Source of the DNA: Deferribacterales bacterium Deferri_01
Lineage (GTDB): Bacteria; Chrysiogenota; Deferribacteres; Deferribacterales; Geovibrionaceae
Assembly (NCBI GenBank): GCA_001603805.1
Contig: LUZY01000003.1
Coordinates: forward strand, 1 to 64,000
Reading direction: 5' to 3'
DNA length: 64,000 nucleotides
This document shows, in pieces, positions 12,788 to 30,357 of this stretch. The notes under the pieces are model-generated. The model was not told where the DNA came from and did no database searches. It worked only from the letters and a program-made list of their open reading frames with translations. Both the position numbers and the translations under genes were made by a program. Positions within the stretch are counted from its first letter, which is position 1. Each line of letters starts with the position of its first letter.

Positions 12788-13452
12788 GCAGGGCTTCTGC
12801 AATCGGCATAAACGTTCTGAAGTGGTTTCTGGCGTTTGTGATGACACTCCTGATCTTTGCTGTGTTCATCACCGTTAACCGTGAACATAATTTTGACACA
12901 TCAGATAAGAGTGATTCTTTTCGTGTGATGATGAGTGAAAAAGCAGCGGAAAATATTCAGCAGGAGAAACACGAACTCCCCAAAGAACCGGAAACAGAAC
13001 GTATGCCCACACCGCAGCCTGTTATGCAGGATATTCCATTGGAGGCAGATGTTGATGCAGGTGATACGGGTATTGCTATTCAGGTTTCGGAAGTCAAGGT
13101 TAAACCTGCTGATCTTCCCAGTATAAGCGCTCCGGTTTCGGTGCCTTCCGATGCTGTTTATAATCTGAGCGATCTGGATAACAAACCGAGACAGACTGTA
13201 AGCGTCAGACCGGATTACCCCCGTTATGCTGTGAATAACAGGATAGAAGGGAGTGTAACCGTCAGTTTTACGCTGGACAGGCAGGGCAATGTGGTAAATC
13301 CGCAGGCAGTTAAATCAGACCCTCCCAATGTTTTTGAAAACTCTGCCCTTGCTGCTGTGAGAAAATGGAAGTTCACCCCCGCTATTAAAGGGGGCGAGGC
13401 TGTTAATGTACGTATGGTAGTGGTCGTAAACTTTACGCTGGAGAGATTCTGA
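12784..13452 (+). CDS. tonB: TonB energy transducer
   Basis: About 222 residues if started at GTG 12784, which overlaps the exbD stop (GTGA). A longer reading from 12733 would overlap exbD by 55 bases and add a cysteine-rich tail unlike TonB, so I prefer the GTG. One membrane helix (about residues 8-28) is followed by a Pro/Glu-rich linker (KEPETERMPTPQP) and a C-terminal TonB domain, with YPRYAVNNRIEGSVTVSF and AVRKWKFTPAIKGGE. It spans the periplasm to contact TonB-box receptors; none is encoded in this window. Confidence 0.9.
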   Translation: MSRASAIGINVLKWFLAFVMTLLIFAVFITVNREHNFDTSDKSDSFRVMMSEKAAENIQQEKHELPKEPETERMPTPQPVMQDIPLEADVDAGDTGIAIQVSEVKVKPADLPSISAPVSVPSDAVYNLSDLDNKPRQTVSVRPDYPRYAVNNRIEGSVTVSFTLDRQGNVVNPQAVKSDPPNVFENSALAAVRKWKFTPAIKGGEAVNVRMVVVVNFTLERF

Positions 13453-14606
13453 TGAAAAAGCTGTTAATAATCCTCGTAGTGCTGGCATCCGCAGGTGCTT
13501 TTGCTGCCGAAGCGGAAAAAGATATATCGCCGGCGGTTCGTTCTGCTTATAACAAAGCCCATGATTACTATGACAAAGGCGAGTTAAGCAAGGCTGAGGA
13601 AGCTGTAAAAGAATACAGAACCAAATTTCCCGATGCCCCGCATGGTCTTCTCAGCATGATTATGGGTAATATCTGCCTGAAAAAGCAGGATAAAAAATGT
13701 GCCATGAAAGAATTTGAAGACAGCGCAAACTTCTATGAAAACAACAGGCAGATGTGGGAAAACGCCTCGCTTCTTGCATACGAAAATAAAGAATATAAAA
13801 AAGCCGAACAGCTTCTCGGCAAACTTGCCTCCCTCGGCGGTCTGAATATGCAGGAAAAGAAAATACTCGTTTCTGTATACTTTGCGCAGGAACAGTGGAG
13901 CAAGGCGGCATCTCTGTTTACTCCTGCGGAGTTTAAAAGCATGGATGATTCCGATGCCAGAGCTGTTCTGATGGCAACCCACAGAGCAGGAAGGAAGGAC
14001 TCCTTCTACTCAATGCTCAAGGAAAGGATAGATACATCGCAGAACCCTGAGTGGTGGAAATTTTATGCCGCTTTTGCCCTTGATGATAAGAGAATGAAAG
14101 AGGGCGTATCTGCTATGAAGACATATGTAAGGGCAGGCGGTGTGACAGCGGAAGAAAAAGTAACGGCTGCACGTCTTCTCGCCAGAGCCAAGGTTTATGA
14201 TGAATCCGCAGAACTATTCAGCGCAGCTATGAAAGAAACCCGTCTGGAGTGCCGTGACATGGTTTTCGCCGGCAATGTAGCGAGAAAAGCCGGACAGTTT
14301 GAAAACTCCATTAATATTCTGGACAAGGCTGTAGCCGCCGGATGCTCAGACAGGGCCTTAAGTTCAAAGGCTGTGGCATACTTTTATAAAAAGGACTATG
14401 GAAGAGCAGCAGAAACATTTGTGAGAGCAACAGAAAAAGAAGGCAACAGAGCTTACGGCTCTTATATGGCAGGCTTGTCATACTATAAAGCCGGAGATAG
14501 TGTAAATGCCCGCCGTTTCCTTAAAATGGCAGGCAGAAACAGCGAATACGGCAAACGTGCCGCAAAACTCCTTGAATATATGGATGAAAACGGCAAAAAC
14601 AGTTAA
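13452..14606 (+). CDS. Secreted TPR protein of the TonB operon
   Basis: A 384-residue protein with a signal peptide (MKKLLIILVVLASAGAFAA) and TPR-like helical repeats through most of its length (for example GELSKAEEAVKEYRTKFPD, KEYKKAEQLLGKLASLGG and KDYGRAAETFVRATEKEG). Its ATG overlaps the tonB stop by one base. TPR proteins close TtpC-type TonB clusters in vibrios and relatives, where they are thought to help the complex; that role is transferred from context. A strong terminator follows, so this is the last gene of the operon. Confidence 0.85.
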   Translation: MKKLLIILVVLASAGAFAAEAEKDISPAVRSAYNKAHDYYDKGELSKAEEAVKEYRTKFPDAPHGLLSMIMGNICLKKQDKKCAMKEFEDSANFYENNRQMWENASLLAYENKEYKKAEQLLGKLASLGGLNMQEKKILVSVYFAQEQWSKAASLFTPAEFKSMDDSDARAVLMATHRAGRKDSFYSMLKERIDTSQNPEWWKFYAAFALDDKRMKEGVSAMKTYVRAGGVTAEEKVTAARLLARAKVYDESAELFSAAMKETRLECRDMVFAGNVARKAGQFENSINILDKAVAAGCSDRALSSKAVAYFYKKDYGRAAETFVRATEKEGNRAYGSYMAGLSYYKAGDSVNARRFLKMAGRNSEYGKRAAKLLEYMDENGKNS

Positions 14607-15101: not shown

Positions 15102-15105
15102 AAAA

Positions 15106-15133
15106 AACGGGCGGAGTTGATCCGCCCGTTTAT
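15106..15133 (+). terminator. Terminator hairpin after PAS gene
   Basis: A perfect 10-bp stem (AACGGGCGGA / TCCGCCCGTT) with a five-base loop. The A run before it and short T run after it suggest it can also stop the minus-strand tRNA transcript. Confidence 0.8.
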
Positions 15134-15136
15134 AAA

Positions 15137-15210
15137 CGCCCTCGACATGATTCGAACATGTGGCCTATTGATTAGGAATCAATCGCTCTATCCTCCTGAG
15201 CTACGAGGGC
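15137..15210 (-). tRNA. tRNA-Arg, anticodon CCT
   Basis: On the minus strand the acceptor GCCCTCG (15204-15210) pairs with CGAGGGC (15138-15144), with discriminator G at 15137. The D arm reads GCTC-AGGAGGATA-GAGC, the anticodon stem ATTGA / TCAAT encloses loop TTCCTAA with anticodon CCT (reads AGG), and the T arm holds GTTCGAATC. The CCA end is not encoded. Confidence 0.95.
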
Positions 15211-15415: not shown

Positions 15416-16204
15416 ATGGGAGAAGTAATTACTTTTGCGAATAAAAAAGGAGGGAGCGGCAAAACATCTGCCGTTCTGAATATAGGAGCAGCCGCCGGAG
15501 GCAAAGGGAAAAAGATTCTTATGATCGACCTTGATCCGCAGGCTCACCTTTCCTACTGGTCCGGCGTAAATACCTACGATACATACCCTAATATTTACGG
15601 GGCAGTGCTTGGAGAGTACACTGCGGCGGATGCTGTTTTTAAACCGGCACACGGTTTGTATGACATTATTCCTGCCTCAACAGGTTTTTCCCATCACGAT
15701 CTGCGCAAACTTCTTGATGGAGTCAGTGTTGAGGCGAAGCTAACCAGATGTATTTTCGATATTAAAGAAAAATATGACTACGTACTGATAGATACACCGC
15801 CCACTGTTGCCGTGCTTACCCTGAATGCCCTTGTGGCGTCCAGATTTGTCCTTATACCTGTTTTGCTTAACTTCCTTGCTATTGAAGGGCTGGCGCAGCT
15901 TGCTCAGAATATCTACCGCATAAACATGGCGCATAACCCCGAACTGCGGATTATGGGGATAATACCAAATCAGCACGATATAAGAAGCAACCACGCAAAA
16001 AAGGTGATGAAAGAGCTTTACGAGAACTTCGGTGAGGATATGGTAACTCCCCGCATAAGAAGCGATGTGAAAATCGCTGAAGCTCCGGAAGCAAGACTGC
16101 CTATGAATCTTTATGCCCCAACCAGCAGAGGCGCTATGGATTTCAGTATTCTGACCGATTACATCCTCAGTAAAATAGAGGAGGAGACGGGAGTGAAAAG
16201 ATGA
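15416..16204 (+). CDS. ParA-family ATPase heading the chemosensory operon
   Basis: A 262-residue ParA/MinD-type ATPase. The deviant Walker A KKGGSGKT lies at residues 9-16 with its signature lysine, Walker A' is LMIDLDPQAHLSYW, and Walker B is YVLIDTPPTV. I prefer ATG 15416 to an upstream in-frame TTG because the protein then begins, as usual, directly before the Walker A strand. No ParB or parS-like gene is adjacent; instead it overlaps an Hsp70 gene by four bases and opens a che operon. ParA homologues (ParC in Vibrio) position polar chemoreceptor arrays, so I infer a role in placing this cytoplasmic signalling cluster. Confidence 0.88.
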   Translation: MGEVITFANKKGGSGKTSAVLNIGAAAGGKGKKILMIDLDPQAHLSYWSGVNTYDTYPNIYGAVLGEYTAADAVFKPAHGLYDIIPASTGFSHHDLRKLLDGVSVEAKLTRCIFDIKEKYDYVLIDTPPTVAVLTLNALVASRFVLIPVLLNFLAIEGLAQLAQNIYRINMAHNPELRIMGIIPNQHDIRSNHAKKVMKELYENFGEDMVTPRIRSDVKIAEAPEARLPMNLYAPTSRGAMDFSILTDYILSKIEEETGVKR

Positions 16205-17700
16205 AGCGCTGCGTAGGAATAGATTTCGGCACAAGCAACTCTATGATAGCCGTCTGCAGAGAAGGCGGCGGAATAGATATAATAAGCTCTGAAAGCGGCA
16301 AGAGGTATCTGCCGTCTGTTATATATTTCAAGAATGAAAATGAGGCTGTGATAGGCGATAACGCCAAGAGTATGCAGCTTCTTGAGTCTGAACATACCAT
16401 TGCCAATATCAAAAGATACATGGGAACAGATATGCTGTTTCCTCTTTACGGCAGGGGGTACAGGGCGGAGGAACTTGCATCTCTTATCTTCCGCAAGCTT
16501 AAAAAAAGCTTTGTGGACTACTGCGGTGAAACCGAAGCAGATGCTGTGGTCACTGTGCCTGCTTATTTTGATCACTACCAGAGAGAAGCGGTGCGATCTG
16601 CCGCTGAGAATGCAGGTTTTAATGTCCTGCGCCTCTTGAACGAACCCACATCCGCCGCTCTTTTTTACAACAACATCGGCAAAAACACAGGTGATGTCTG
16701 CATGGTTTTCGACCTTGGCGGAGGCACGTTGGATATAAGCCTTATTGAGATGAATGAGGACTGCTGCAAAGTACTTTATACCGGCGGTTCAACTGAAATA
16801 GGGGGTGTGGATTTTGATGTTGCCGTTGCTGAATACTTTATAGAAAACTTCCGCCGTCAGCATGATATAGACTTGAAAAGCGACCCCATAGCATACCAGC
16901 AGCTTTTGTTTCAGGCTGAAAAAGCTAAGATGGAGCTTTCCTCTCTGAATGAGGTAAACCTTGTTGTGCCTTATATTACGGTTACTAAAAAAGGCGCCCT
17001 GCACTTTAAAGAGACGATCACCAGAGAGACTTTCGATGCGATCACTTCATCTCTGACTAAGGGGATCAGGAATATTATCGAAAACCTGCTTGAGTCAAAC
17101 GGATTAAAGACAGATGATATCGCAAAGGTTCTGCCTGTGGGCGGAGCTTCAAGAATACACAGTGTGCGCAGGCTTGTGTCGGATATTTTCGCTGATAAGG
17201 TGAGAAAAGATATGAACCCTGAGGAGGCTGTTGTCAGCGGTGCTGCGGTTAATGCCGCCATGATTTCCGGCGTGATAAAGGATAAGGTCTTTTATGATGT
17301 TACATCTCACAACCTTGGTGTTGAGGATGATAACGGGAATTTTGAAGTTATACTTAGAAAGAATGAAGTTTATCCGGTGGAATTTAGTATGATTTTCACC
17401 ACACCTGAACTGGAAAGGAAAAATATTACTGTTCATGTGCTTCAGGATATGGCAAAATCCTCATTAAATATAGGAAATTCCCTCGAAGAAAACCCTGAAC
17501 ATTTTGCTAGTTTGGGCAGATTTTCGGTGGAGCTGGATGAAAATGACGAGAGTGAGCCTTTAATAGACATTTCTTTCATGATAGATGAAAGCGGTATTAT
17601 AAACGTCAAAGCCAAGGATGTTCATACCGGAAAAGAAACAGATTTTACACTCAGGCTTAAAATAGAAAACGAAATATTGGATACATTGGAAATATTCTGA
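16201..17700 (+). CDS. Short Hsp70 (DnaK-like) protein in the chemosensory operon
   Basis: A 499-residue Hsp70 homologue with a complete actin-like ATPase domain: IDFGTSNSMIAV (phosphate 1, residues 6-17), VTVPAYFDHYQREA, LLNEPTSAALFY, VFDLGGGTLDISL (phosphate 2) and LPVGGASRIHSVRRLV (adenosine). The substrate-binding beta domain is shortened and the alpha-helical lid is missing; DnaK is about 640 residues. The start overlaps the ParA stop (ATGA). No DnaJ or GrpE is nearby. It may handle receptor-array proteins or act as an ATP-driven switch with ParA. I know no standard function for an Hsp70 in a che operon. Confidence 0.88.
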   Translation: MKRCVGIDFGTSNSMIAVCREGGGIDIISSESGKRYLPSVIYFKNENEAVIGDNAKSMQLLESEHTIANIKRYMGTDMLFPLYGRGYRAEELASLIFRKLKKSFVDYCGETEADAVVTVPAYFDHYQREAVRSAAENAGFNVLRLLNEPTSAALFYNNIGKNTGDVCMVFDLGGGTLDISLIEMNEDCCKVLYTGGSTEIGGVDFDVAVAEYFIENFRRQHDIDLKSDPIAYQQLLFQAEKAKMELSSLNEVNLVVPYITVTKKGALHFKETITRETFDAITSSLTKGIRNIIENLLESNGLKTDDIAKVLPVGGASRIHSVRRLVSDIFADKVRKDMNPEEAVVSGAAVNAAMISGVIKDKVFYDVTSHNLGVEDDNGNFEVILRKNEVYPVEFSMIFTTPELERKNITVHVLQDMAKSSLNIGNSLEENPEHFASLGRFSVELDENDESEPLIDISFMIDESGIINVKAKDVHTGKETDFTLRLKIENEILDTLEIF

Positions 17701-17718
17701 AATTATTCGGAGGAAACT

Positions 17719-19959
17719 ATGAAGAAACTGGCTAAGCCGTCGAGCCTTGAAGGCAGAACTGGGCTTGTGAAGAAAGAGGGAGAAGAGCTTCAGAGAAAAA
17801 GAGATGAAGCAAAAAGAAATGCCGCTGAAAAAGCGCGCAGCAGAACCCTTGCCAAGCAACAGGCAAATGCGGAAAGGCTTGCCACCGCTTCGGAGGAGAT
17901 GGCTTCAGCCATTGAGCAGTCCAGCAGTGCGGCCACCCAGCTCGGTTCAGCCATGGTTCAGGTAACTGTGGCATCTGCACAGGTCAGCAGAACCTCCGAC
18001 AATATCAAAAACGAAACAGTCCAGCTTGAACAGGTGAGCCGTAAGGTTTTTGATAACTCAATAAGATACGATGCAGCTGTAAGCCGGATGAACGACCGTG
18101 TTGAAAACACCGTGAACGCTGTGAAGGAACTTAGAGAAAGTGTTGATAATACGACTAATAAGGTTGTGGAATCCACTTCTCTTGTCGAACAGCTTAAGGA
18201 AAAAGCAGGCTCCATTGAGCAGATTGTTCAGGTTGTTAAAAAAATAGCCGACCAAACTAACCTTCTTGCCCTCAATGCCGCTATCGAGGCAGCAAGAGCA
18301 GGGGAACACGGCAAAGGCTTCGCCGTTGTGGCGGATGAGGTGCGTACTCTGGCGGAAGTTTCAGAAGGCGCAGCAAAAGATATTAAAATAGTCATAGACT
18401 CATCACTTGACCAGGTAAGCCGTGTGGTGGAAAAGGTCAATACCTTTACCAAACGCTCAAAGACAAACCTCTTCAAAGCTGATTTCATAAGCAATAAATG
18501 TACTGCCATCAATGATGCTGCCAAGGTTATGCGTGAGCAGGTAAGCAAAATTAAGACTGATTCAGAAAAGATTTGCATGGAATCGGGCAAATCCCTTGAT
18601 ATTGTAAACCGTCTTGCGGCAGCAACAGAACAGAATGCCACCGCATCTGAGGAAGTGAGCAAATTCACCGAAGAGCAGGCAAAGGCATTTGCCGAGCTTA
18701 CTGCGGCGGCTAATGAAATTGCTGAAATGTCTGAAGAGCTTAAAAACTCCACTGATATGTCTAAATCATCCGAAGAGGTTGCAGCGGCAGCGGAAGAGCT
18801 TTCCGCTACGATTGAAGAACTCAATGCCTCTGCGGAAGAGATTCTTAAGGCAATTGACCAGATAGACACCGGAACACAGGAAATGGGTGAAGAACTTGGC
18901 GGAATTAAGTACGAGTTTAACACTATGCAGAAGCTCCTCGACGAAGGTAACGAATGCTGGGCTGTTATGATGGTTGAAGGTGAAAAAATTCTGACAGATC
19001 AGGAAGATATAAAAGCTCTTGATCACATTGTATTCATAAACCAGCTCGAAGAAGCGATCAATAACAACACTGTATTTGAAGGACAGCTTGACCCCTCAAA
19101 ATGCCCGTTTGGTGCATGGTATCTTACATACAAGCCACACGACCATGACGAGGAAAAATGCTACCATGCAATCCGAGAACCTCACAACCATGTTCACCTC
19201 GGTGCGGGAGAAATAGTGCGTCTTATGGCTGAAGGCAAGCTTGGGGAAGCAAGAGAGATTTTTAAAAATAAAGTCCTGCCCGGCGTTGAAGGCTTCAAAC
19301 AGGAATACAGAGGTTTTCATAACGGAATAGAGCTTGTGGCTCTTGGTTTTGTGAAAAGCATTGAAAGCATCAGAGAGATAAGCACAGAAGTCAAACAACT
19401 TTACAAGTCATTCAGCAGTATAAGAAAAATTGTTGATACAATAAATAATGTCGCCATACAGACAAACATGCTCGCTGTTAACGGAAGCATTGAAGCAGCG
19501 CGTTCAGGTGAGTTCGGCAGAGGTTTTTCTGTCGTTGCATCGGATATACGCTCCCTCGCCAGCGAGTCGGCAGACAATGCGGATAAAATGAAGGATATTC
19601 TTGAGGAAATGTACGAACAGACAGATAATTTCCAGACGGAGCTTCAGGAGATAGGTCAGCTTATCCGTGTGCAGATCGAGAAATCGGAAGTTGCCGTTGT
19701 CAACCTTGTTGAAACAGTCAGGCTCAGATCCGCCGCCGCAGAAACACGCAGAGTTTCTCAGGCTTTCTTTGAAGAGGGTGAAAGCATGGTTGTAAGGGTG
19801 AACGAGGCATGCAATGAAAGTCTTGAAGTGGCGGAAAAGCTTAAAAAACTCACAGATGAGGCCAAGCTTGCTGCTGATGAGCAGGTGAAAGGACTTAATG
19901 AGATTTCTGCCGCTGCGGAGGAGGTTGCTTCTCTTGCTGATGAGATGCAGGCTTACTGA
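17719..19959 (+). CDS. Cytoplasmic chemoreceptor with two MCP signalling hairpins and a central CZB zinc-binding domain
   Basis: A 746-residue soluble methyl-accepting protein with no signal peptide or membrane segment; the N-terminus is a basic coiled coil. The first signalling tip spans residues 178-210 ([20 protein letters not shown]). A second tip begins near 579 ([20 protein letters not shown]). Between them a chemoreceptor zinc-binding domain shows His436, CPFGAWY (Cys462) and HNHVH (His489, His493). CZB domains bind zinc and respond to hypochlorous acid or zinc. Glu/Gln-rich ASEEM-type methylation sites flank both tips. A receptor with two complete tips in one chain is unusual. The ribosome site is CGGAGG. 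Confidence 0.9.
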
Positions 19960-19975
19960 TTTTTAAGGAGCAGTT

Positions 19976-21502
19976 ATGGCTAAATTAAGCCCCGAAGAGG
20001 TATTAAGCGGGGCGGAGCATTCTGATAAAAAGTATGTTTCGTTTACCGTTGGTTCAGAATACTTCGGAATACCTATAGACGAGGTCAGGCAGATTATCCG
20101 CCTGCCAAAGGTTACCCGTGTGCCTAAAATGCCAGCTTTTGTTTTAGGTATAAGCAACTTAAGAGGCAGCGTTCTTCCTGTTCTGGATCTTTCTCTGCGT
20201 CTTGGTTACATAAACCAGTGTGTCCACGGTGAGGATACAAGGGTTATTGTCACAGAAAAAAACGGTCTTGAGATTGGCTTTGTAGTGGAATCCGTAAGCG
20301 AGGTTAAGTCCACAGAATCCGGCTCTTATGAAGAACTTCCTGAAATGCTCAACGGCGGTGCTGATAAAAAGTTTATTGCCGGTGTTTTGAAAATGCACAC
20401 AAAGGAAGGGACAAGGCTTGTACAGGTTCTTGATTCCGGTGAGTTGGTGAATATATCGGAATTTCAGCGCAGGGTTGATGAAGCCGCCGTTCAGAGAGGA
20501 ATGCCGATCAAGGCTGAAGTGCCTGATAAAGAAATGTCCGACTACAGACGTTTTATAAGTTTCGAGATAGACGGACAGGGCTACGCAATTGAAATACATA
20601 AAATAAATGAGATTATCCGCCTGCCGGAATATGTTACTGTTCCCGGAATGGAAAGCTATGTCATAGGTATATTCTCCCTGCGTGAGCAGGTGATTCCTAT
20701 GATCTCGCTTCACAAAAAATTCGGCAGGAAAGCCGCATCAGAAACCGAAGACACAAGAGTGGTTATAATTGAGATCGAAAACACGCTTGTGGGTTTCGTT
20801 GCTGACAAAGTCAGCGAGGTATTGAGCGTATCCGAAGCATCCATAGAAGAACCCCCCAAGGTATTTGCTGAAAGCGGAAACGAAATTTCAGCAATTATCA
20901 AGGCAGAGCAGGGCGAAAGGCTTGTTATGATTCTGGAAAGCTCTAACCTGCTCCGTAACAAAGAGATCGAAGCTCTGAAAAAACTAGCAAAACAGGAAGG
21001 AGGAAGTTTGGTTATGGCAGATTCATCAGGTTCTTCCGCCGAAGAAAAACAGATAGTGACCTTCACTATTGAAGATGAGGAATACGGCATCTTTATTGAG
21101 AAGGTTCAGGAAATAAACAGATATACCAATGTGACCAGAGTACCGAAAACCCCTGCATTCGTGGAAGGAATAGTAAATCTCAGGGGCGAGGTTATACCGC
21201 TTATAGACTTAAGAAAACGCTTTGAACTCCCCGTCAGGGATAAGGATGAATTTACCAGAGTGATAATAGCCAACCTTTCCAGCATTCGTGTGGGCTTTGT
21301 TGTGGATTTCGTAGATGAAGTTCTCCGTGTGTCGGCTGACAGTATAGACTCTGTTCCTGCTGTTCTCGGTGCAGGTGTTGACAGCCAGTTTCTTGAGGGC
21401 GTGGTCAACTTAAGCGGAGAGCAGAGAATGATCCTTCTTCTGAATGTTGATGAGCTTTTCAGCAAAGCGGAGAAGAAGAAACTCGAAAAGATAAGCTCTT
21501 AA
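19976..21502 (+). CDS. Triple-CheW scaffold protein
   Basis: A 508-residue protein made of three successive CheW domains, about residues 16-155, 178-325 and 355-500. Each has the same landmarks: a YFGIPIDEVRQIIR-type opening, a VTRVPKMPAFVLGISNLRG-type middle and a GFVVESVSEV-type strand. CheW couples receptors to CheA in hexagonal arrays. Three domains in one chain could join several receptor or kinase contacts, which fits the two-tip receptor encoded just upstream. GGAGC precedes the ATG by six bases. Confidence 0.92.
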   Translation: MAKLSPEEVLSGAEHSDKKYVSFTVGSEYFGIPIDEVRQIIRLPKVTRVPKMPAFVLGISNLRGSVLPVLDLSLRLGYINQCVHGEDTRVIVTEKNGLEIGFVVESVSEVKSTESGSYEELPEMLNGGADKKFIAGVLKMHTKEGTRLVQVLDSGELVNISEFQRRVDEAAVQRGMPIKAEVPDKEMSDYRRFISFEIDGQGYAIEIHKINEIIRLPEYVTVPGMESYVIGIFSLREQVIPMISLHKKFGRKAASETEDTRVVIIEIENTLVGFVADKVSEVLSVSEASIEEPPKVFAESGNEISAIIKAEQGERLVMILESSNLLRNKEIEALKKLAKQEGGSLVMADSSGSSAEEKQIVTFTIEDEEYGIFIEKVQEINRYTNVTRVPKTPAFVEGIVNLRGEVIPLIDLRKRFELPVRDKDEFTRVIIANLSSIRVGFVVDFVDEVLRVSADSIDSVPAVLGAGVDSQFLEGVVNLSGEQRMILLLNVDELFSKAEKKKLEKISS

Positions 21503-21543
21503 AAAGTATTTCAGAGACTTTTAAAAACTACTGCGGGTACCGG

Positions 21544-22605
21544 ATGATAAAAGTTCTTATTGTGGATGATTCCGCTCTTATGCGGAAAAAAGTCAGGGAA
21601 ATGCTGGAGTCCGATCCGGACATAGAGGTTGTCGGTGCAGCAAGAGACGGTCAGGACGGCGTAACCAAAGCCCGTGCCCTTAAACCGGATGTCATTACAA
21701 TGGACATAAACATGCCTGTAATGGATGGTTTGACTGCGTTGTGCATTGTAATAGAAGAGAATATCTGCCCTGTTATAATGCTCAGTTCGCTCACGCAGGA
21801 GGGCGCAGCAACCACTTTTGAGGCTATGGAGCTTGGGGCATTTGACTATGTGGCAAAACCCGGCGGAACTGTTTCCATCAATATTGATGAAGTCAGGGAA
21901 GACCTTCTTACAAAAGTTAAAGCGGCTGTAAAGGCAGGTAATTCCAAACTACGCAGAAAAACAGCGAAACCTGTAAAAAAGAAGCTTGTTGTTGAGCAGG
22001 AAGAGGAAGAACCGCTTGAGCTGGATGAATACCCCGCTGTCTGCATAGGAATATCCACTGGCGGACCGAAAACCATTTTTGATGTCCTGCCAGAGCTTGA
22101 AAAAAACTTTCCCGCTGCGGTTTTCATGGTTCAGCATATGCCGCCGTCATTCACTGCCACATATGCCAGAAGACTTAATGAATACTGCCGCATTCATGTA
22201 AAAGAAGCGGAAGCCGGAGAGGAAGTGCGTCCGGGTGTGTGCTACCTTGGTAAAGGCGGCTTCCACATGACACTATACAAAAAACCAGGCGGTAAGATAA
22301 TTATAAGACTCACAAAAAAACCGGAGCATCATTTTGTACCCAGTGTGGACGTTATGATGGATTCTGTACAGAGCTGCTTCGGGGATAAAACAATCGGAAT
22401 TCTCATGACAGGCATGGGGGATGACGGCGCCAACAGTATGGTAAAAATACGCAAAGGAGGAGGCTTTACAATAGCCGAATCCGAAGAAAGCTGCATAGTC
22501 TTCGGTATGCCGAAAGAGGCAATCGCAAGGGGTGGAGCGGATGTTGTTATACCCAGTACAAAAATAGCCGGAGAACTCAGCAGGGTTGTTAAAAGGGGGT
22601 GGTGA
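21544..22605 (+). CDS. cheB: CheB, receptor glutamate methylesterase
   Basis: A 353-residue two-domain protein. The receiver (1-120) has VDDSALMRK, phospho-acceptor Asp54 and AKPGG. The methylesterase domain has the catalytic serine Ser171 in GISTGGPK, His198 in VQHMPPSF and Asp293 in MTGMGDDGA. A charged linker (VKKKLVVEQEEEEPLELDE) joins them. It removes methyl groups from receptors when phosphorylated by CheA, opposing the CheR encoded downstream. No ribosome site is strong; a weak CGGGTACCGG precedes the ATG. Confidence 0.95.
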   Translation: MIKVLIVDDSALMRKKVREMLESDPDIEVVGAARDGQDGVTKARALKPDVITMDINMPVMDGLTALCIVIEENICPVIMLSSLTQEGAATTFEAMELGAFDYVAKPGGTVSINIDEVREDLLTKVKAAVKAGNSKLRRKTAKPVKKKLVVEQEEEEPLELDEYPAVCIGISTGGPKTIFDVLPELEKNFPAAVFMVQHMPPSFTATYARRLNEYCRIHVKEAEAGEEVRPGVCYLGKGGFHMTLYKKPGGKIIIRLTKKPEHHFVPSVDVMMDSVQSCFGDKTIGILMTGMGDDGANSMVKIRKGGGFTIAESEESCIVFGMPKEAIARGGADVVIPSTKIAGELSRVVKRGW

Positions 22606-22606
22606 A

Positions 22607-22888
22607 ATGGATATAAGACCACTGAAATCAAAGCTTAAGATCGTTTTTCCCGAAGAGTGTGAAAACTTTATGGTAGAAGAAGCTTTGAGCGTGCTTAAAG
22701 AGACAAATCTTGCGGCAAAACCTGCTGCAGAAATAGATCTTTCAGCAGTGCGGACAATGGACACAACTTTTGTAAATATACTTGTCTCTCTCCTTAATAC
22801 ATTGAAGGAGAAGGGAATAAAATATGAAATAACAGGGAAAAGCAGTGAAGTCTCAAGGGTCATGGGACTTTACGGGCTGGGTATCTGA
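22607..22888 (+). CDS. STAS-domain protein of the chemosensory operon
   Basis: A 93-residue protein consisting of one STAS (anti-sigma-factor-antagonist) fold, with AAEIDLSAVRTMDTTFVNILVSL carrying the usual strand-helix and a residue pattern like the phospho-site region. (That stretch spans residues 40-62.) ATG 22607 sits one base after the cheB stop and is preceded by GGGGGTGG. Where SpoIIAA has a phosphorylatable serine, here the sequence reads MDTT, so phosphorylation is uncertain. STAS proteins act by protein-protein binding; a partner within this signalling complex is the natural guess. Confidence 0.75.
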   Translation: MDIRPLKSKLKIVFPEECENFMVEEALSVLKETNLAAKPAAEIDLSAVRTMDTTFVNILVSLLNTLKEKGIKYEITGKSSEVSRVMGLYGLGI

Positions 22889-22900
22889 CAGGGGGAAAAC

Positions 22901-23263
22901 TTGAAAAGGATACTGATAGTTGACGATGCCATAACCATGAGGCAGCTTGTCGCCGCTACGCTGAAGTCGGCGGGCTATGAAGTAGTAGACGCCCGTGACG
23001 GCAAGGATGCGCTGACTAAGCTTGAGAATGATAGATTTAATCTGATCATTTCCGACCTGAATATGCCCAATATGGACGGCATAACGCTTATTAAAGAAGT
23101 AAAAAATATGGCTAAACACAAGTTTACGCCAATTATCATGCTTACCACTGAATCTCAGGCGGAGAAGAAAGAGGAAGGCAGAAAAGCTGGTGCTAAAGCG
23201 TGGATTGTTAAGCCGTTTAAACCGGCTGATCTTCTGGCTGTAGTAAAAAAGATAGTACCCTGA
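22901..23263 (+). CDS. cheY: CheY-type single-domain response regulator (first)
   Basis: A 120-residue receiver with the acidic pair in IVDDAITMRQ, phospho-acceptor Asp52 (IISDLNMPNMDG), Thr in MLTTES and Lys in WIVKPF. It starts at TTG 22901, supported by AGGGGGAA seven bases upstream; no in-frame ATG fits the receiver start. It is phosphorylated by CheA and either drives the output or acts as a phosphate sink. Two further receivers lie in the same operon. Confidence 0.9.
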   Translation: MKRILIVDDAITMRQLVAATLKSAGYEVVDARDGKDALTKLENDRFNLIISDLNMPNMDGITLIKEVKNMAKHKFTPIIMLTTESQAEKKEEGRKAGAKAWIVKPFKPADLLAVVKKIVP

Positions 23264-23292
23264 CAATTTGATGTGAGCGCACGGAGAAGCAG

Positions 23293-24357
23293 ATGGATAT
23301 TCAGAGCATAAAGGCATCACTCCTGAATGAAGACGAAACTGAAAGACTATATGCTGTTGAGGACATAATAACTCTGCGTTCAGAGGAACTTATACCCGAA
23401 CTTATATCTGCTCTTGTAAGAGAGGACAGCCGCATGGTTAAGGAACTGATGGTGGAAGGGCTTAAGCTGCTTGATACAACACCGCATTTCTCTTCAATTG
23501 CGAAATTTTTTGAGTCATCCGACGCATTTATAAGAAACTGTGCCATTGAGATCTTCGGCTCAAAGGGTGAGGATGCGGTACCGTTTCTCACATCAATTAT
23601 GGATCACTCCGATAAAGAAGTACGCAAGCTGATTCTTGACAGCCTTGTTGCCACAGGATCAAAATACTGTATTCCTGCTCTGAGAGCTGCTTTGAAGGAT
23701 AAGGCGCCGAATGTGCAGATAACTGCTGTTGAATATCTGGGCAAAATAAACGATGAGGAATCTCTGGGTGATATTCTGGAGATTTTTGAGACTTCAAACG
23801 AACCCATGCTCCGTATCTCCTGTCTGGAAACTTTTACTCATTTCGCCAGACAGGAAGTGGTTGATACTGTTCTGGATATACTCGGAGGTGTGAACATGGA
23901 CAGCTTTTATAAGCCGTCTGTCTTCCGCATGGTTGCTGAGTGCGGCACAAGGGAGCATCTGCCGTTTTTGCTGACTTTTCTTAATAATAAAAACACATTG
24001 TTTTTCAATGAGATATCAGGCTCAATCCTGAAAATAATGATAAGAGATGATGTTGACGTTCTTCCGTTTGAGTATGAAAAATATGTAATCAACGGAGTGA
24101 AGGATCAAAACCTTGATTCGGATAACCGTATCACCTTTATGGGAATCGCTTTCAGGCTGTGCCTGAAGGACAAAGAAGATATCTTTGAAGAGTTTGTCGG
24201 AGAGGAAGACATGAATGTAATGCTTGCCGCTCTTGATAAACTTGCGGTACTGAACAGGGAGAGAGCCATTAAAATAATTGAACGCAGACTTAAGGTTGCT
24301 GAAGACGATGTTAAAGAAGAGCTTCTCAGCCTGAAGGCACTGATAGCGGAGCAGTAA
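23293..24357 (+). CDS. HEAT-repeat protein of the chemosensory operon
   Basis: A 354-residue cytoplasmic protein of alpha-alpha repeats of the HEAT/PBS-lyase type. Repeat units of about 30 residues are visible, such as DAVPFLTSIMDHSDKEVRK, YCIPALRAALKDKAPNVQI and SLGDILEIFETSNEPMLRI. It has no enzyme motif. HEAT proteins act as scaffolds, and similar genes occur in some delta-proteobacterial chemosensory operons. It abuts cheR exactly (TAA then ATG), so it may position or regulate CheR; this is inference. Confidence 0.8.
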   Translation: MDIQSIKASLLNEDETERLYAVEDIITLRSEELIPELISALVREDSRMVKELMVEGLKLLDTTPHFSSIAKFFESSDAFIRNCAIEIFGSKGEDAVPFLTSIMDHSDKEVRKLILDSLVATGSKYCIPALRAALKDKAPNVQITAVEYLGKINDEESLGDILEIFETSNEPMLRISCLETFTHFARQEVVDTVLDILGGVNMDSFYKPSVFRMVAECGTREHLPFLLTFLNNKNTLFFNEISGSILKIMIRDDVDVLPFEYEKYVINGVKDQNLDSDNRITFMGIAFRLCLKDKEDIFEEFVGEEDMNVMLAALDKLAVLNRERAIKIIERRLKVAEDDVKEELLSLKALIAEQ

Positions 24358-25191
24358 ATGTTTGTTGTTACGCTTGAGGACTACAAAGATCTTACTGCTT
24401 TTATCTATAAAAAGTCAGGGATAAATTTTGAAGATAAAAAGCGCTATTTTATAAATAAGAGACTGGAAAAGCGTCTTTTTGCCCTTGGCATAGAATCCGC
24501 CCGTGACTATATCCGTTTTCTGAAATTTAAGGACAGGGAAGGGATTGAGTTTCAGGAGCTTATGAACCTTCTAACTGTCAACGAGACATATTTTTTCCGT
24601 GAATTTGCAACTCTGGAAGTATTTGCAGAGTTCTGCCTTCAGGAAATAGCTGAGAAAAAAGAAAAAGAAAAAGATGACACGATCCGTATCTGGTCCGCAG
24701 GATGCTCCACAGGTGAGGAGCCTTATACCCTTGCCATCATCGTGCGTGAATTGCTGGATAAGCATGAGGACTGGAACGTGGAGATTGTTGCTACGGATAT
24801 TGATCTCTCTGCTCTGGAAAAAGCAAAGAACGCCCGCTATGACGACAGAAGTGTGAAAGATGTGCCCGAAGAGTATTATGAAAAATATTTTAACTACATT
24901 GACGGATCCCATGTTCCTGTGAAAGCCATAAGGGATATGGTGCGGTTTGAACATATAAACCTGAATGACAAAATGCAGATGAGAAGGCAGAGAGGCTTTG
25001 ACTTCATATTCTGCCGTAATGTACTCATCTATTTCGATGAAATTTCCAGAAAGCAGGTTGTGGATCACTATTACATAGCCCTTAACAGGGGCGGCTACAT
25101 CTTCCTTGGTCACAGCGAGTCTGTGGGACGCATTACAACCGCTTTCTCAATTAAAAGGTTCGGCAGAAATGTCGTTTATTACAAGGGGTAA
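24358..25191 (+). CDS. cheR: CheR, receptor glutamate methyltransferase
   Basis: A 277-residue SAM-dependent O-methyltransferase of the CheR family. The N-terminal helical domain (SGINFEDKKRYFINKRLEK) is followed by the SAM-binding motif WSAGCSTGEEPYTLAI, VEIVATDIDLSALEKA and FDFIFCRNVLIYFD. It methylates receptor glutamates during adaptation and is paired with CheB in this operon. The ATG immediately follows the stop of the HEAT gene, so it relies on coupled translation. Confidence 0.95.
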   Translation: MFVVTLEDYKDLTAFIYKKSGINFEDKKRYFINKRLEKRLFALGIESARDYIRFLKFKDREGIEFQELMNLLTVNETYFFREFATLEVFAEFCLQEIAEKKEKEKDDTIRIWSAGCSTGEEPYTLAIIVRELLDKHEDWNVEIVATDIDLSALEKAKNARYDDRSVKDVPEEYYEKYFNYIDGSHVPVKAIRDMVRFEHINLNDKMQMRRQRGFDFIFCRNVLIYFDEISRKQVVDHYYIALNRGGYIFLGHSESVGRITTAFSIKRFGRNVVYYKG

Positions 25192-25195
25192 GACA

Positions 25196-25561
25196 ATGGC
25201 GTTTAAAGTTCTTATAGTAGATGACTCGGACATGGTGAGGCATTTTCACGCCAATATCCTCAAATCCGCCGGCTTTGACACCGAACAGGCGATAGACGGC
25301 ATGGACGCCCTGGAAAAGTCTGTAAAAAATTCTTTTTCCCTTATTCTGTGTGATCTTAACATGCCCAGAATGGACGGTATAACGTTTATAAAAGAACTCA
25401 GAAAAACAGGGAAGGAAACACCTGTTATTATAATTACCACTCAGGAAGAGGCGGAAAACCGCAGAAAAGGCTATATGTCCGGTGCTAATCTGTACATAAC
25501 CAAGCCTGTGAAACCTGAGGAACTGATAATAAACATAAAAATGCTTCTTGGTATTTCCTGA
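25196..25561 (+). CDS. cheY: CheY-type single-domain response regulator (second)
   Basis: A 121-residue receiver with IVDDSDMVRHF, phospho-acceptor Asp53 (ILCDLNMPRMDG), Thr in IITTQEE and Lys in YITKPVKP. ATG 25196 has AAGGGG six bases before it, four bases after the cheR stop; longer upstream readings would run into cheR. It sits directly before cheA and is probably the main phosphotransfer target. Confidence 0.9.
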   Translation: MAFKVLIVDDSDMVRHFHANILKSAGFDTEQAIDGMDALEKSVKNSFSLILCDLNMPRMDGITFIKELRKTGKETPVIIITTQEEAENRRKGYMSGANLYITKPVKPEELIINIKMLLGIS

Positions 25562-25572
25562 CGGGGTGGGGT

Positions 25573-28509
25573 ATGGCTGAAATAGATATGGAAAAGTTCC
25601 GCAGGTCTTTCCTTGACGAAGCGTCGGAACTTCTTGAGCAGGTTAATGAAGATGTTCTCAAAATTGAAGCTGTTGATGACCCTGAACTTGTCAACTCGGT
25701 TTTTCGCTCCATCCACACTATAAAAGGTAGTGCGGCTGGGTTTGGTTTTGACCATATATCCGCTTTTACGCACCACCTTGAAACACTGCTGGACAAGCTT
25801 CGTAATAAAGAACTCAGCGTAACCAGCGAACTTGTGGACAGCATACTTAAAGCCGTTGACGGTATCTATGAGATGGTTTGTGCAGCGAAGGAAGGCAGAG
25901 AGTATGTTGTGGATGAAGAAGGAATCAGGCGTGAGCTTGAAAGCTATCACCTTTCCTCCGGCGAAGAAGATTCAGCCGAGAAACCTGCTGTTATCTCAGA
26001 TGAAACTGATGAAGTATCTGCTTATGTATCCTGCCCTGAAATACGCTCCAAGCTGAAAACAGCAGGGAGAAAAGGCGGAAAACCCTACAGAGCTGATTTC
26101 CACTTTACTTCAGAAATGCTTGAAAACGGCTATGATCCGCTCCCTGTTTTGTCCAACCTTAAAATGAGTTCGGCGGAGTATTTCTGCATCGCAGATAAGA
26201 CCTCTGTTCCTTCTATAGACAGCCTGAATCCTTTTGAAATATATCTTCAGCCGGAAGTCTACGGTATAAGCGATCTTGAGCCGGCTGATCTTGCTGATTT
26301 CGGGTTCGAGCCCGGTGTTATTTCAGTTTGTTCAGCATCTTTGGATGAGCCTGAAGCAAGTAAAGAGGAACCTTCTGTTACTGCGGCCAATGAGCAAAGC
26401 GCCCCTGAATCCGCACCTGCGGATTATATAACAATGGAGGGGATAGATGCTGAACTTCTGGGTGAACTTACTGCGAGCATAGATGATTATTTTGAATCAA
26501 TAGAATCAGTCACATTAAAGCTTGAAAAAGACGGAAGCGGCGGTGGACCGGGTATTGATGACCTTTTCCGTGTTTTCCACACCATCAAAGGTGACTGCGG
26601 TTACGTTGGTTTCCGTTTTCTTGAGGAGTTTGCTCATCTTGTTGAAAGTGTTCTGGATGATATAAGAAGCGGCCGAATCATGTTTGATAAGAAGGCTGCG
26701 GATATTATTCTTTCTGTTGTCAGTGATATCAGGGATATGCTTACAGGGCTTACAAGAAATGGAATGACCCCTGTTCCCGACTCTTACCGTGTGCTTAAAA
26801 AGCTTACTTCAAACCTTGAGAATATGAAAAGCTCAATGACTGTTGTCAATGAGGAAGTGAAGATATTTATCAAGCAGCTTGAACAGTTTATAGAAATAAT
26901 GAATATGGCGTCCGAAGGCGGGGAGCTTGATGTCAGGCAGGTGCTGAGAGGAGCCGGCGGGCTGAAAAACGCCGCCAAGTTTATAGGTTTTGACGATCTA
27001 TTCAGTATAGCGGAAGAACTTGAAAAATGTATAAAAGGGTCAAAGCCTTTTGATGCTCATATGGAGCGTATTCTTAAATACCTTGAGGATCTTAAATCGC
27101 CTCCTAAAATGCTTGGAGAGCTTCTTGTTCGTGACGGTAAGATAACAGAAGATGACATTCAGGATGCATTAAGCAAGCAGAAAAAACTCGGTGATATCCT
27201 TGTTGAAGAGGGTAAGCTCGGTAAGGATGAACTTGATAAAGCTCTGAAAAAACAGGAAGTTATGAAAGCTGTTTCCGGAACAGCGAAGGAAGGCACACCT
27301 GTCTCCGCAAAACAGCAGGCTGCGGGTGTTACTCAGCAGGAAGTCGGCTCTCAGACAATGAAGGTGGATCAGGAGAAAATAGACAAGTTTACCAATACTA
27401 TAGGCGAGCTTGTGGTAGCAAAAAATGCTAATGAATACCTCATTCAGAAGATAGCCCGTGAGTATGCGCTTCCTTCATCTCTGGTGAAGGAACTTAAGGA
27501 TAATGCAAATCTTATTGCACGTATTTCACAGGATCTGCAAAGGGATATACTCTCACTGCGTATGATCCCGATAAAACAGGTATTTCAGAAGTTTCCCAGA
27601 GTTGTAAGGGATATATCAAGGAAACAAAATAAACAGATCGACCTGCGTATAATCGGGGAAGATACAGAGATAGATAAAAAAGTTGCTGACCTTCTCAGTG
27701 ATCCTCTAGTGCATCTTCTCCGCAATTCATGCGATCACGGCATAGAAACAGCGGAGGAAAGGCAGGCATCCGGCAAAACACCTGTCGGCACAGTTATCCT
27801 TAAAGCTTATCAGGAAGGCAGCTTCGTTTATATTGAAGTAATAGATGACGGTAAGGGGATAAACACCGTTAAAGTAAGGGAAAAAGCTATCTCTAACAAG
27901 CTTGTGTCCGCCGATGCGGAGTTAAGCGAGAAGGAGATCATGCAGCTTATCCTTGAACCCGGCTTTTCAACCGCAGAAAAAGTTACTGACATATCCGGCA
28001 GAGGGGTCGGAATGGATGTGGTTAAGACCAGTGTCGTCAATCTCGGCGGCTTTGTAGACATACAATCAACCATGGGAGAAGGCTCAAGATTTGTTCTGAA
28101 AATACCTGTGACTATAGGTGTTTCCACTGCACTTCTGGTTAAGCTCAGTTCTGTTGTTTATGCAATACCCATTGAAAATGTTGCCGAAACAATCAAGCTG
28201 CCCAAGGAAAAAATCAAAGATCTGCATTATGGTCTTGCTGTGCATTACAGGGGGATGGTGCTGCCTCTCTACAGCATGAAAGGGCTTCTGGATGAAGAGC
28301 CCGGGGAGCTGCCGGATGAGGTCTGCATAGTAATCACCAATACCGATATGGGGAAAGTCGGGCTTATGGTGGATGAACTTATAAACCGCATTGATATAGC
28401 AATAAAACCTGTACCTGAATACTTCTCACACCTTTCTTATGTCGGCGGGATAACTATTCTTGGGGATGGTCAGGCGGTTTTGGTTCTTAATACGAACAAA
28501 CTCATATAG
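25573..28509 (+). CDS. cheA: CheA hybrid-free histidine kinase with multiple HPt modules
   Basis: A 978-residue kinase, larger than E. coli CheA (654). HPt1 (about 8-105) has phospho-His48 in SIHTIKG. A domain near 165-260 resembles the segment that follows HPt in many CheA/FrzE proteins. HPt2 (288-395) has His336 in VFHTIKG. A third HPt-like bundle (425-500) has Gly462 where His is expected (GGLKNAAKFIGF), so it cannot be phosphorylated. Two short LGxxLVxxG-type repeats (513-536, 538-561) precede the dimerisation helices. The ATPase domain has His714-Asn718 (HLLRNSCDHG), DDGKGI and GRGVGMDVV, and a CheW-like domain ends it. Confidence 0.93.
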   Translation: MAEIDMEKFRRSFLDEASELLEQVNEDVLKIEAVDDPELVNSVFRSIHTIKGSAAGFGFDHISAFTHHLETLLDKLRNKELSVTSELVDSILKAVDGIYEMVCAAKEGREYVVDEEGIRRELESYHLSSGEEDSAEKPAVISDETDEVSAYVSCPEIRSKLKTAGRKGGKPYRADFHFTSEMLENGYDPLPVLSNLKMSSAEYFCIADKTSVPSIDSLNPFEIYLQPEVYGISDLEPADLADFGFEPGVISVCSASLDEPEASKEEPSVTAANEQSAPESAPADYITMEGIDAELLGELTASIDDYFESIESVTLKLEKDGSGGGPGIDDLFRVFHTIKGDCGYVGFRFLEEFAHLVESVLDDIRSGRIMFDKKAADIILSVVSDIRDMLTGLTRNGMTPVPDSYRVLKKLTSNLENMKSSMTVVNEEVKIFIKQLEQFIEIMNMASEGGELDVRQVLRGAGGLKNAAKFIGFDDLFSIAEELEKCIKGSKPFDAHMERILKYLEDLKSPPKMLGELLVRDGKITEDDIQDALSKQKKLGDILVEEGKLGKDELDKALKKQEVMKAVSGTAKEGTPVSAKQQAAGVTQQEVGSQTMKVDQEKIDKFTNTIGELVVAKNANEYLIQKIAREYALPSSLVKELKDNANLIARISQDLQRDILSLRMIPIKQVFQKFPRVVRDISRKQNKQIDLRIIGEDTEIDKKVADLLSDPLVHLLRNSCDHGIETAEERQASGKTPVGTVILKAYQEGSFVYIEVIDDGKGINTVKVREKAISNKLVSADAELSEKEIMQLILEPGFSTAEKVTDISGRGVGMDVVKTSVVNLGGFVDIQSTMGEGSRFVLKIPVTIGVSTALLVKLSSVVYAIPIENVAETIKLPKEKIKDLHYGLAVHYRGMVLPLYSMKGLLDEEPGELPDEVCIVITNTDMGKVGLMVDELINRIDIAIKPVPEYFSHLSYVGGITILGDGQAVLVLNTNKLI

Positions 28510-28525
28510 TGCTACGGAGTGCCTG

Positions 28526-28888
28526 ATGAAAATATTTATTGTTGACGACAACGGCCTGCATCTGAAAATGTGCAATTTCATACTGACAAAGCTTGAACAT
28601 GAAGTTTTTATTTTCGATTCTTTGAAAAAATTGGATAATTTTTCTCACGAAAATAACATAATTCCTGATATATTGTTTATAGACTTTAGGCTTGGACCTA
28701 CTGAAACAGGTCTCGATGTTCTTGAAAATGTAAAAAATAAATACAAATGGAAATCAGCTAAGTGTATCGCCTTTACTGCGGACGTCTCGGAAGCTTCGCA
28801 GCTCAGGACAAGTGGGTTTGACAATGTTATTCTCAAACCTGTAACCGAAAATATGCTGAAGGAAGTTGTGGGAAAATACTCCAGATGA
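28526..28888 (+). CDS. CheY-type single-domain response regulator (third)
   Basis: A 120-residue receiver with IVDDNGLHLKM, phospho-acceptor Asp53 in LFIDFRLGPTETG, Thr in AFTADVSEA and Lys in VILKPVTE. ATG 28526 is preceded by ACGGAG and lies 16 bases after the cheA stop. It is more divergent than the two earlier CheY copies (FRLG in place of LNMP). It overlaps the next gene by four bases, so it may work with that protein. Confidence 0.85.
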   Translation: MKIFIVDDNGLHLKMCNFILTKLEHEVFIFDSLKKLDNFSHENNIIPDILFIDFRLGPTETGLDVLENVKNKYKWKSAKCIAFTADVSEASQLRTSGFDNVILKPVTENMLKEVVGKYSR

Positions 28889-30357
28889 TTCATCTCAATG
28901 AGCTTAAAAATGAGCTTACAGAATATTTTACTGAAATAGTCGATATCATAAACAGGCTGATGGAGCTGCGTGGCAGCAGCTTTGAAAGCATGCTTGAGAT
29001 TAACACATATCTTGAAAAATCAGCAAAAAGCTTTACGGACGATACTGCTGTCCTCATTGCTAAAATATCTGAAGACTTGAACAAAAAGGTTGTGAGAATA
29101 GATATAAAAACAATGAAGGATGATATCACTGACGCTTCGGAAACTTTCCTTAAAATTACTGATGATCTTGAGCTTTTATCTTACAATACAATCTGTACTA
29201 CCATGTCTCTTGGTGCTAAGGGTGCTACAATTGCCCATATAAGCAAGGAAATTAAGAAAAACTCTGCAGTCGCCAAAAATCTTCTGGAAAATATATCATC
29301 AATATTTACCCTTATTTATGATGATTTTAAAGAGATTAATACAACTTTCAGCGAAAACAGCTCAAAAGTGGAGCTTATGGCAGGCGGTGCAGATGAGCAA
29401 AGCGCACCACTTGAAGTTAGTTCTGATATATCAAGGCTCATTGAGTGCAGCCAGTTTCATGATATTATAATTCAGGAAATAGATGCAATCAGCCACGCTA
29501 TGATAGAATGCACAGATGATGACAGCTTTTGCCTCGGTAAAAGTTATGGCGTTCATGAACTGGCAATCTCAAAGATGGATGAAGTAAAGACAAAAATAAC
29601 TGAGATTTTTGAAGAAATAAAAGAGGTTATAAAAGAATTTCTTTACCACATAAATACTGATATTCAGAATATTGTCAGCCGTGCCAACCTTGTTAAGATG
29701 GAGTTTGAGCAGGCAAAGGAATACAGCGATTCCATTGAGAAGATAGTGGGCGGGCTGATCAACATGATCAGGCAGACAGAAAAAGAACTCAAAAACGCAG
29801 GAAACGGAATAATCACTTTAAAGAAATTCGGCAAGTCATTCAGAAATCTTGTTGTTATTACCGCTGTGGAAGTTGCCAGAATTGGCGACACTTCTTTGGA
29901 AAGTGTTGTCGTTTCCATGAGTGAAACTGAACGTATTCTTATGACACTTGTTGATAAGCTCGCTGTCAGTCTTAAACTCTGGGGAGAATTGAAGGGTGAT
30001 TTTGTTTCTGTTTTGAATGAGGCAGACACAAATATTAACCGCCTTCGTGAACTGCACTCTGAAGATCATATAAACGATCTGATGAAAAAATCCGGTGATC
30101 TTGACGGTGAACTTGAACATTTCAGAAACAATTTTTCGGGTGATGAGTTTATACAGCATCTTAATACGGGACTTTTTAAGATAAATGATTCCTTTGATGA
30201 GATCGACAGGCTTTTCAGAAAAAGTTTTGAAGCTCTTAAACGCAAGATTCCTCAGTCATTATACTCTGACCCCGATTTTGAAGCCGGGCGTTCATCTGCT
30301 TCCATTGTGGATGTCATGGCTAATGAAGAACAACACTCATCAATTGATTTCTTTTAG
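28885..30357 (+). CDS. Coiled-coil chemosensory protein resembling a degenerate two-tip receptor
   Basis: A 490-residue, soluble, almost wholly helical protein. It has no intact MCP tip, but residues 98-124 (LSYNTICTTMSLGAKGATIA...) align without gaps to the MCP tip [20 protein letters not shown], keeping Leu, Asn and Gly positions. Residues 323-335 (VVITAVEVARIGD) keep EVAR.GD of a second tip. Between them QFHDIIIQEIDAI has Asp193 and Gln197 in the DxxxQ spacing of the CheZ phosphatase. I read it as a decayed paralogue of the two-tip receptor, or a receptor-shaped phosphatase or scaffold. It is last in the operon and overlaps the third receiver gene. Confidence 0.7.
   Translation: MIHLNELKNELTEYFTEIVDIINRLMELRGSSFESMLEINTYLEKSAKSFTDDTAVLIAKISEDLNKKVVRIDIKTMKDDITDASETFLKITDDLELLSYNTICTTMSLGAKGATIAHISKEIKKNSAVAKNLLENISSIFTLIYDDFKEINTTFSENSSKVELMAGGADEQSAPLEVSSDISRLIECSQFHDIIIQEIDAISHAMIECTDDDSFCLGKSYGVHELAISKMDEVKTKITEIFEEIKEVIKEFLYHINTDIQNIVSRANLVKMEFEQAKEYSDSIEKIVGGLINMIRQTEKELKNAGNGIITLKKFGKSFRNLVVITAVEVARIGDTSLESVVVSMSETERILMTLVDKLAVSLKLWGELKGDFVSVLNEADTNINRLRELHSEDHINDLMKKSGDLDGELEHFRNNFSGDEFIQHLNTGLFKINDSFDEIDRLFRKSFEALKRKIPQSLYSDPDFEAGRSSASIVDVMANEEQHSSIDFF

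Follow-up and report, generated by a model that had tools for sequence, protein, structure and literature searches.

An F9-class chemosensory operon of Deferribacteres with a ParA-type ATPase and a lidless Hsp70 at its head

We analyzed a 64,000-nucleotide (nt) stretch from Deferribacterales bacterium Deferri_01 (GenBank assembly GCA_001603805.1, contig LUZY01000003.1, positions 1–64,000), hereafter the window, and within it an operon of 13 genes, all in the same direction on the + strand, spanning 15416–30357. By its gene content, this operon is a chemosensory system of class F9, and at its head stand two lineage-specific ATPases, a ParA homolog and a lidless Hsp70. With moderate confidence, we favor a reading in which ParA positions the F9 array and the Hsp70 is a dedicated remodeler of that array. 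Most of the unusual gene combination is already known from F9. New elements are the lidless Hsp70, apparently dedicated to the operon, as well as a CZB zinc-binding domain within the receptor and another Hsp70 in a flagellar operon of the sister class. In the open-licence literature, we found no paper on an Hsp70 encoded in a che operon of the F9 or flagellar type.

The genes were identified from the open reading frames (ORFs) of the window and their Pfam matches. Their order is ParA, Hsp70, two-tip receptor, triple CheW, CheB, STAS, receiver 1 (REC1), HEAT, CheR, REC2, CheA, REC3, and a 490-amino acid (aa) helical protein, with intergenic gaps of −4 to 41 nt across the unit. The coordinates, direction, identities, and overlapping or close spacing given in a preliminary description of this DNA are therefore borne out. 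The F9 signature is a receptor with two tandem signaling domains (DosM) together with a triple CheW (CheW3) (PMC9321776), and the window has both. The DosM-type receptor (17719–19959) contains two stretches of the methyl-accepting chemotaxis protein (MCP) domain MCPsignal (PF00015), with tip motifs at residues 186 and 588, and CheW3 (19976–21502) consists of three concatenated CheW domains (PF01584 in three stretches, 1e-102). The N-terminal signature RxRTLAKQQ of the receptor is common to several other DosMs. No hydrophobic segment is present (maximum hydropathy of 0.93 over 19 residues versus 3.07 in a membrane control), so the soluble, two-tip receptor of the preliminary description stands, except that its CZB domain had been missed.

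The same description regarded these parts as rarely found together, which does not hold in that form. Most of them belong to the set already known from F9 (DosM, CheW3, HEAT, CheB, CheR, CheY, and CheA), and the order DosM-CheW3-CheB-HEAT-CheR-REC-CheA occurs on proteobacterial plasmids of Methylobacterium, Methylosinus, Eleftheria, Sphaerotilus, and Azospirillum, in agreement with the window core order DosM-CheW3-CheB-(HEAT)-CheR-REC-CheA. On these plasmids, the HEAT gene sits between cheB and cheR, as in the window, and the HEAT-repeat protein (23293–24357; HEAT_2, PF13646, 8e-25) is therefore an ordinary F9 component. The F9 loci of Agrobacterium and Novosphingobium have neither HEAT nor a receiver adjoining CheR. 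In Vibrio cholerae, F9 (cluster I) builds two-layered, purely cytoplasmic arrays of unknown function (PMC7534058). That system shares with the window a two-tip receptor, triple CheW, HEAT, CheB, CheR, CheY, and CheA, with no transmembrane receptor. The window operon differs by the ParA and lidless Hsp70 at its head, the STAS protein, two extra receivers, the 490-aa helical protein, and the CZB domain inside DosM. Because DosM and CheW3 together mark F9 and the receptor lacks a hydrophobic segment, the cytoplasmic array proposed earlier is supported by the gene set. Taking its geometry from Vibrio F9, DosM and CheW3 would scaffold a two-layered cytoplasmic array holding CheA, with CheR and CheB adapting its signaling.

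Next, we consider the co-conservation of the operon. Sixty genomes were searched with Hsp70 and with CheW3 as queries; a separate contig scan with CheW3 domain 2, a narrow query, gave six loci. An ortholog of the short Hsp70 (51–90% identity) and CheW3 were found in the same 12 Deferribacteres genomes, and no genome among the other Deferribacteres searched had only one of the two. Same-genus and same-family genomes G007 and G018 have neither. ParA is likewise conserved in 12 Deferribacteres loci. The 13-gene order is kept in 11 other genomes at protein identities of 33–98%, which excludes a chance arrangement, with the REC3 and helical-protein genes inverted in the most distant of the 12 genomes. 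Relatives carrying the operon include Seleniivibrio, Denitrovibrio, and other Deferribacteraceae. Outside the phylum, no F9-type Hsp70 scored above 700 bits in a search of 385 genomes, nor did one reach E ≤ 1e-180 in 783 genomes belonging to two other phyla, an empty answer that is weak evidence. In one genome (G009), the cheW3 frame (L026:6846–8357) is interrupted by a single TAG stop, possibly a sequencing error or else a lesion of recent origin.

The Hsp70 (16201–17700; PF00012, 6.5e-119; best Protein Data Bank matches DnaK) is 499 aa long, and its start codon and the parA stop share a 4-nt overlap (ATGA). In alignment with Escherichia coli DnaK, its last residue lies 12 positions beyond DnaK 505, short of the lid. 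The AlphaFold2 (AF2) model, with a predicted local distance difference test score of 86, contains only the nucleotide-binding domain and the beta part of the substrate-binding domain (SBD-beta), confirming the earlier claim of a lidless protein. This model is closer to ATP-bound DnaK (4b9q, template modeling [TM] score 0.81) than to the post-hydrolysis form (2v7y, TM 0.69). The DnaK ATP-site residues D8, K70, E171, and T199 are retained. SBD-beta has an 11-residue insert, and the substrate-arch residue M404 is Asp in the F9 Hsp70s, while the positions equivalent to DnaK I401, F426, V436, and I438 are mostly still hydrophobic. We rejected a housekeeping DnaK, as the lid is absent and the protein scores below both NCBIfam DnaK cut-offs (413.6 versus 648 bits and 406.9 versus 822.55). 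A separate full-length DnaK-like gene, with an open frame of 646 aa, lies elsewhere in the genome. In our tree, the F9 Hsp70s group together as a single, fully supported clade on a long stem.

It is plausible, by analogy with other specialized Hsp70s, that this protein acts on array components, remodeling or switching their assembly. The lidless Hsp70 would be a specialized ATP-driven binder dedicated to the array; lacking a lid, it should bind and release exposed segments fast, and from this expectation we infer remodeling of DosM/CheW3/CheA assemblies, rather than general refolding, as its action. Such remodeling could serve as an assembly checkpoint, or as disassembly before segregation or upon redox change. 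We consider it doubtful that the Hsp70 does no more than assist the folding of the operon's long coiled-coil proteins (DosM, CheA, and the 490-aa protein), acting at their synthesis and not in array dynamics. Co-translation with these proteins from the operon head would suit such a helper, as would the mostly hydrophobic SBD-beta positions. However, the lid stabilizes binding (PMC6843406), and an Hsp70 without one should keep only a weak hold on its clients. In addition, no co-chaperones are encoded in the operon, and F9 proteins in other phyla manage without a lidless Hsp70.

The partner gene at the operon head encodes a ParA-type ATPase of 262 aa (15416–16204; PF13614, AAA_31, 2.1e-42), whose nearest solved chains are Soj/ParA. 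In Rhodobacter, the ParA-like PpfA partitions cytoplasmic arrays via the receptor N-terminus (PMC3964821), and 37% of the species in one survey had ppfA in their che operons (PMC2829493). ParA genes in such operons are commonplace. Our ParA fits a PpfA-type cargo ATPase in having the deviant Walker A motif KKGGSGKT, a place in a che operon, and no ParB among the operon's proteins by Pfam. In R. sphaeroides CheOp3, with PpfA and TlpT, a ParA homolog is likewise encoded beside a soluble receptor without ParB, but the gene set there is not F9. With PpfA/TlpT as precedent, it is fairly likely that ParA positions the array, in line with what had been proposed from the sequence. It would do so without ParB and would share the array out along the nucleoid.

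Several observations weigh against a ParA and Hsp70 pair acting on an array. F9 as such can do without either ATPase. We compared 19 triple-CheW clusters from other phyla (seven plasmids plus L049–L051, L053, and L075–L082) and found a lidless Hsp70 in 0 of the 19 and ParA in 3, either 3′ of the F9 cluster (Methylobacterium and Methylosinus) or inside it (L053). The window DosM has a basic N-terminus, and so do DosMs lacking ParA; a basic tail was therefore rejected as a ParA-specific feature, there being no association with ParA presence, and this comparison lends no support to a ParA-receptor link. For the Hsp70, neither a J-protein nor GrpE is encoded in the operon. The interdomain linker V389-L390-L391 (DnaK VLLLD) is replaced by [KR]-x-F ([KR]xFxD) in the F9 Hsp70s, and the J-domain contact R167 varies within the group. 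With a changed linker and a variable R167, these proteins may have altered or lost ATP-coupled binding.

Conservation of the ParA-Hsp70-receptor order was suggested earlier as a check. The order is found in 12 of 12 relatives with the system, so within the phylum the first refuting condition set there, che genes lacking ParA and Hsp70 in relatives, does not hold. F9 elsewhere lacks the Hsp70 and often ParA. Since most F9 clusters in other phyla have neither gene, the two could be functionally unlinked to the array and merely carried along with the operon. We regard this as very improbable, because the 12 of 12 co-occurrence extends over two families, at the same position and with overlap or close spacing, and because the Hsp70 is under strong purifying selection. 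Its ratio of nonsynonymous to synonymous substitution (dN/dS) is ~0.03 within the genus, as low as that of DosM, a rough estimate as synonymous sites are near saturation.

The preliminary description also knew of no role for a co-encoded Hsp70. This remains so for F9 and flagellar che operons as far as we found, yet two specialized Hsp70s do act on chemosensory or pilus pathways. StkA, an Hsp70 homolog of Myxococcus xanthus that is not induced by heat, functions upstream of the Dif chemosensory proteins (PMC4319316), and cyanobacterial DnaK1 acts with a chemosensory or pilus pathway and works with DnaJ3 (PMC9239167). They resemble the proposed role of the window Hsp70 in being specialized Hsp70s in such pathways. 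They differ in that StkA is encoded in its own stk locus and DnaK1 works with DnaJ3, and neither paper reports an F9 operon or a lidless form.

A second lidless Hsp70, of 495–499 aa, is present in three genomes of a sister lineage within the same phylum (G048–G050; loci L032, L033, and L034/L090). We take this lineage to be the Chrysiogenetes, with one member presumably Desulfurispirillum. The gene lies in a flagellar operon of order CheB-FliM-FliN/Y-Hsp70-CheY-CheZ-CheA, and the colinear flagellar operon of the window genome (L088:8345–15329) has no Hsp70 gene. CheW3 was not found in the Chrysiogenetes genomes with the flagellar-operon Hsp70. Like the window protein, this Hsp70 is ~499 aa, lidless, and encoded within a che operon of the same phylum, but it sits between fliN/Y and cheY, has a DnaK-like linker (LILVD), and falls on a separate branch of the tree. 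A single origin of both groups is not favored by the tree, and the approximately unbiased test does not reject it (p-AU 0.298) and the branches are long; the two groups may be of separate origin.

These comparisons bear on a less probable account, in which the Hsp70 would be a StkA-like regulatory protein that senses cell state (nucleotide, unfolded protein, or surface contact) and feeds the chemosensory pathway. StkA acts upstream of Dif, and its authors allow an Ssz1-like regulatory role (PMC4319316); the changed linker and variable J-contact would suit a non-canonical Hsp70 cycle; and the second lidless Hsp70 belongs to a flagellar switch operon in genomes that yielded no CheW3. However, the stk genes have their own locus, with stkA preceding stkB and stkC, and the strict linkage of the window Hsp70 to DosM and CheW3 would also suit a structural partner. 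We retain the dedicated array remodeler as our favored reading. A broader proposal, which we put forward only tentatively, is that lidless Hsp70s are recurrent dedicated partners of chemosensory systems, with F9 in Deferribacteres and with the flagellar switch and CheY in Chrysiogenetes, and that in F9 the Hsp70 works as a pair with ParA, driven by ATP, to dismantle or reshape the array for segregation and let it re-form on a redox signal.

Input to the array would enter at least in part via the CZB zinc/redox domain located midway along DosM (residues 436–500, 19024–19218; PF13682, 6e-11), where the zinc site is intact (His436, Cys462, and His489/491/493). This core, with its three His at 489–493, is invariant in 11 orthologous DosM sequences of Deferribacteraceae. 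The domain is absent from the DosM of the most distant relative and from five DosMs tested from other phyla. CZB domains with a 3His/1Cys core sense hypochlorous acid (HOCl) or zinc in TlpD and DgcZ (PMC8262984). The window CZB has the same core and differs in sitting between two receptor tips. A survey of Campylobacterota found 98% of DosMs without a sensory domain (PMC9321776), so a CZB-bearing DosM is an exception.

At the output end, the receivers and the helical protein would carry or terminate the signal. The last gene (28885–30357) encodes an all-helical protein without a trusted family, as judged by alignment and AF2, that is 490 aa long in 11 of 12 orthologs despite 36–85% identity. 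Its AF2 model shows helical hairpins turning at 108–109 and 334–335, and the turns carry MCP-tip-like sequence (LELLSYNTICTTMSLG/AKGA...). Matches to MCPsignal fall short of significance (E 0.26 for three of the 12 members; hhalign E 0.2, with tips aligned and the AF2 turn at the aligned spot), so that profile comparison gives no MCP assignment. CheZ was rejected, since hhalign gave no significant match and the resemblance is limited to a short motif, SQFHDIxxQ, invariant at 189–197 and similar to the CheZ active site FQDxTxQ. A fold search returned generic coiled coils, with an MCP structure only at rank 40 (E 0.1). As a lead only, the protein is possibly a degenerate receptor or phosphatase. 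Its gene and that of REC3 move together in the inverted locus, and with this a receiver-phosphatase pair would fit.

The remaining proteins are CheB with its receiver (21544–22605; PF01339, 6e-59, and PF00072), the STAS-domain protein (22607–22888; PF13466, 4e-8), CheR (24358–25191; PF01739, 7e-58), and CheA (25573–28509), a 978-aa protein with several Hpt domains (PF01627 in three stretches, PF02895, PF02518, and PF01584). Three single-domain response regulators (PF00072) are REC1 (22901–23263; 5e-30), REC2 in the CheY position (25196–25561; 2e-30), and REC3 (28526–28888; 1e-11). The starts of STAS (22607) and REC3 (28526, read from the ORF) are corrected here. Two further CheAs and many other receptors are encoded outside the operon in this genome.

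At the 5′ boundary, a terminator-like hairpin (15105–15131, strand not assigned) and an opposite-strand transfer RNA (tRNA) gene (15137–15210, − strand; Rfam RF00005, 67.5 bits) lie between an upstream PAS gene and parA; therefore, the transcription unit probably starts with parA. Upstream of the operon, consensus promoter matches barely exceed those in shuffled sequence, and a stretch conserved in three genomes of the genus gave no clear promoter either. Further upstream (10492–14606) are ExbB/TolQ-, ExbD-, and TonB-like genes by ORF translation, followed by a tetratricopeptide repeat protein by profile match. In the comparison set, the heat-shock operon hrcA-grpE-dnaK is located a few kb away from the triple-CheW cluster at L050, L051, L077, and L078, in four genera of family f90, which may be a single inherited neighborhood.

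F9 cytoplasmic arrays have been imaged, yet their function and the control of their assembly are not known. With an Hsp70 and ParA always present, and an intact CZB in most members, the Deferribacteres operon offers three handles on how such an array is built, moved, and switched. Judging from the flagellar-operon Hsp70 of the sister class, bacterial sensing systems may have recruited Hsp70s on more than one occasion.

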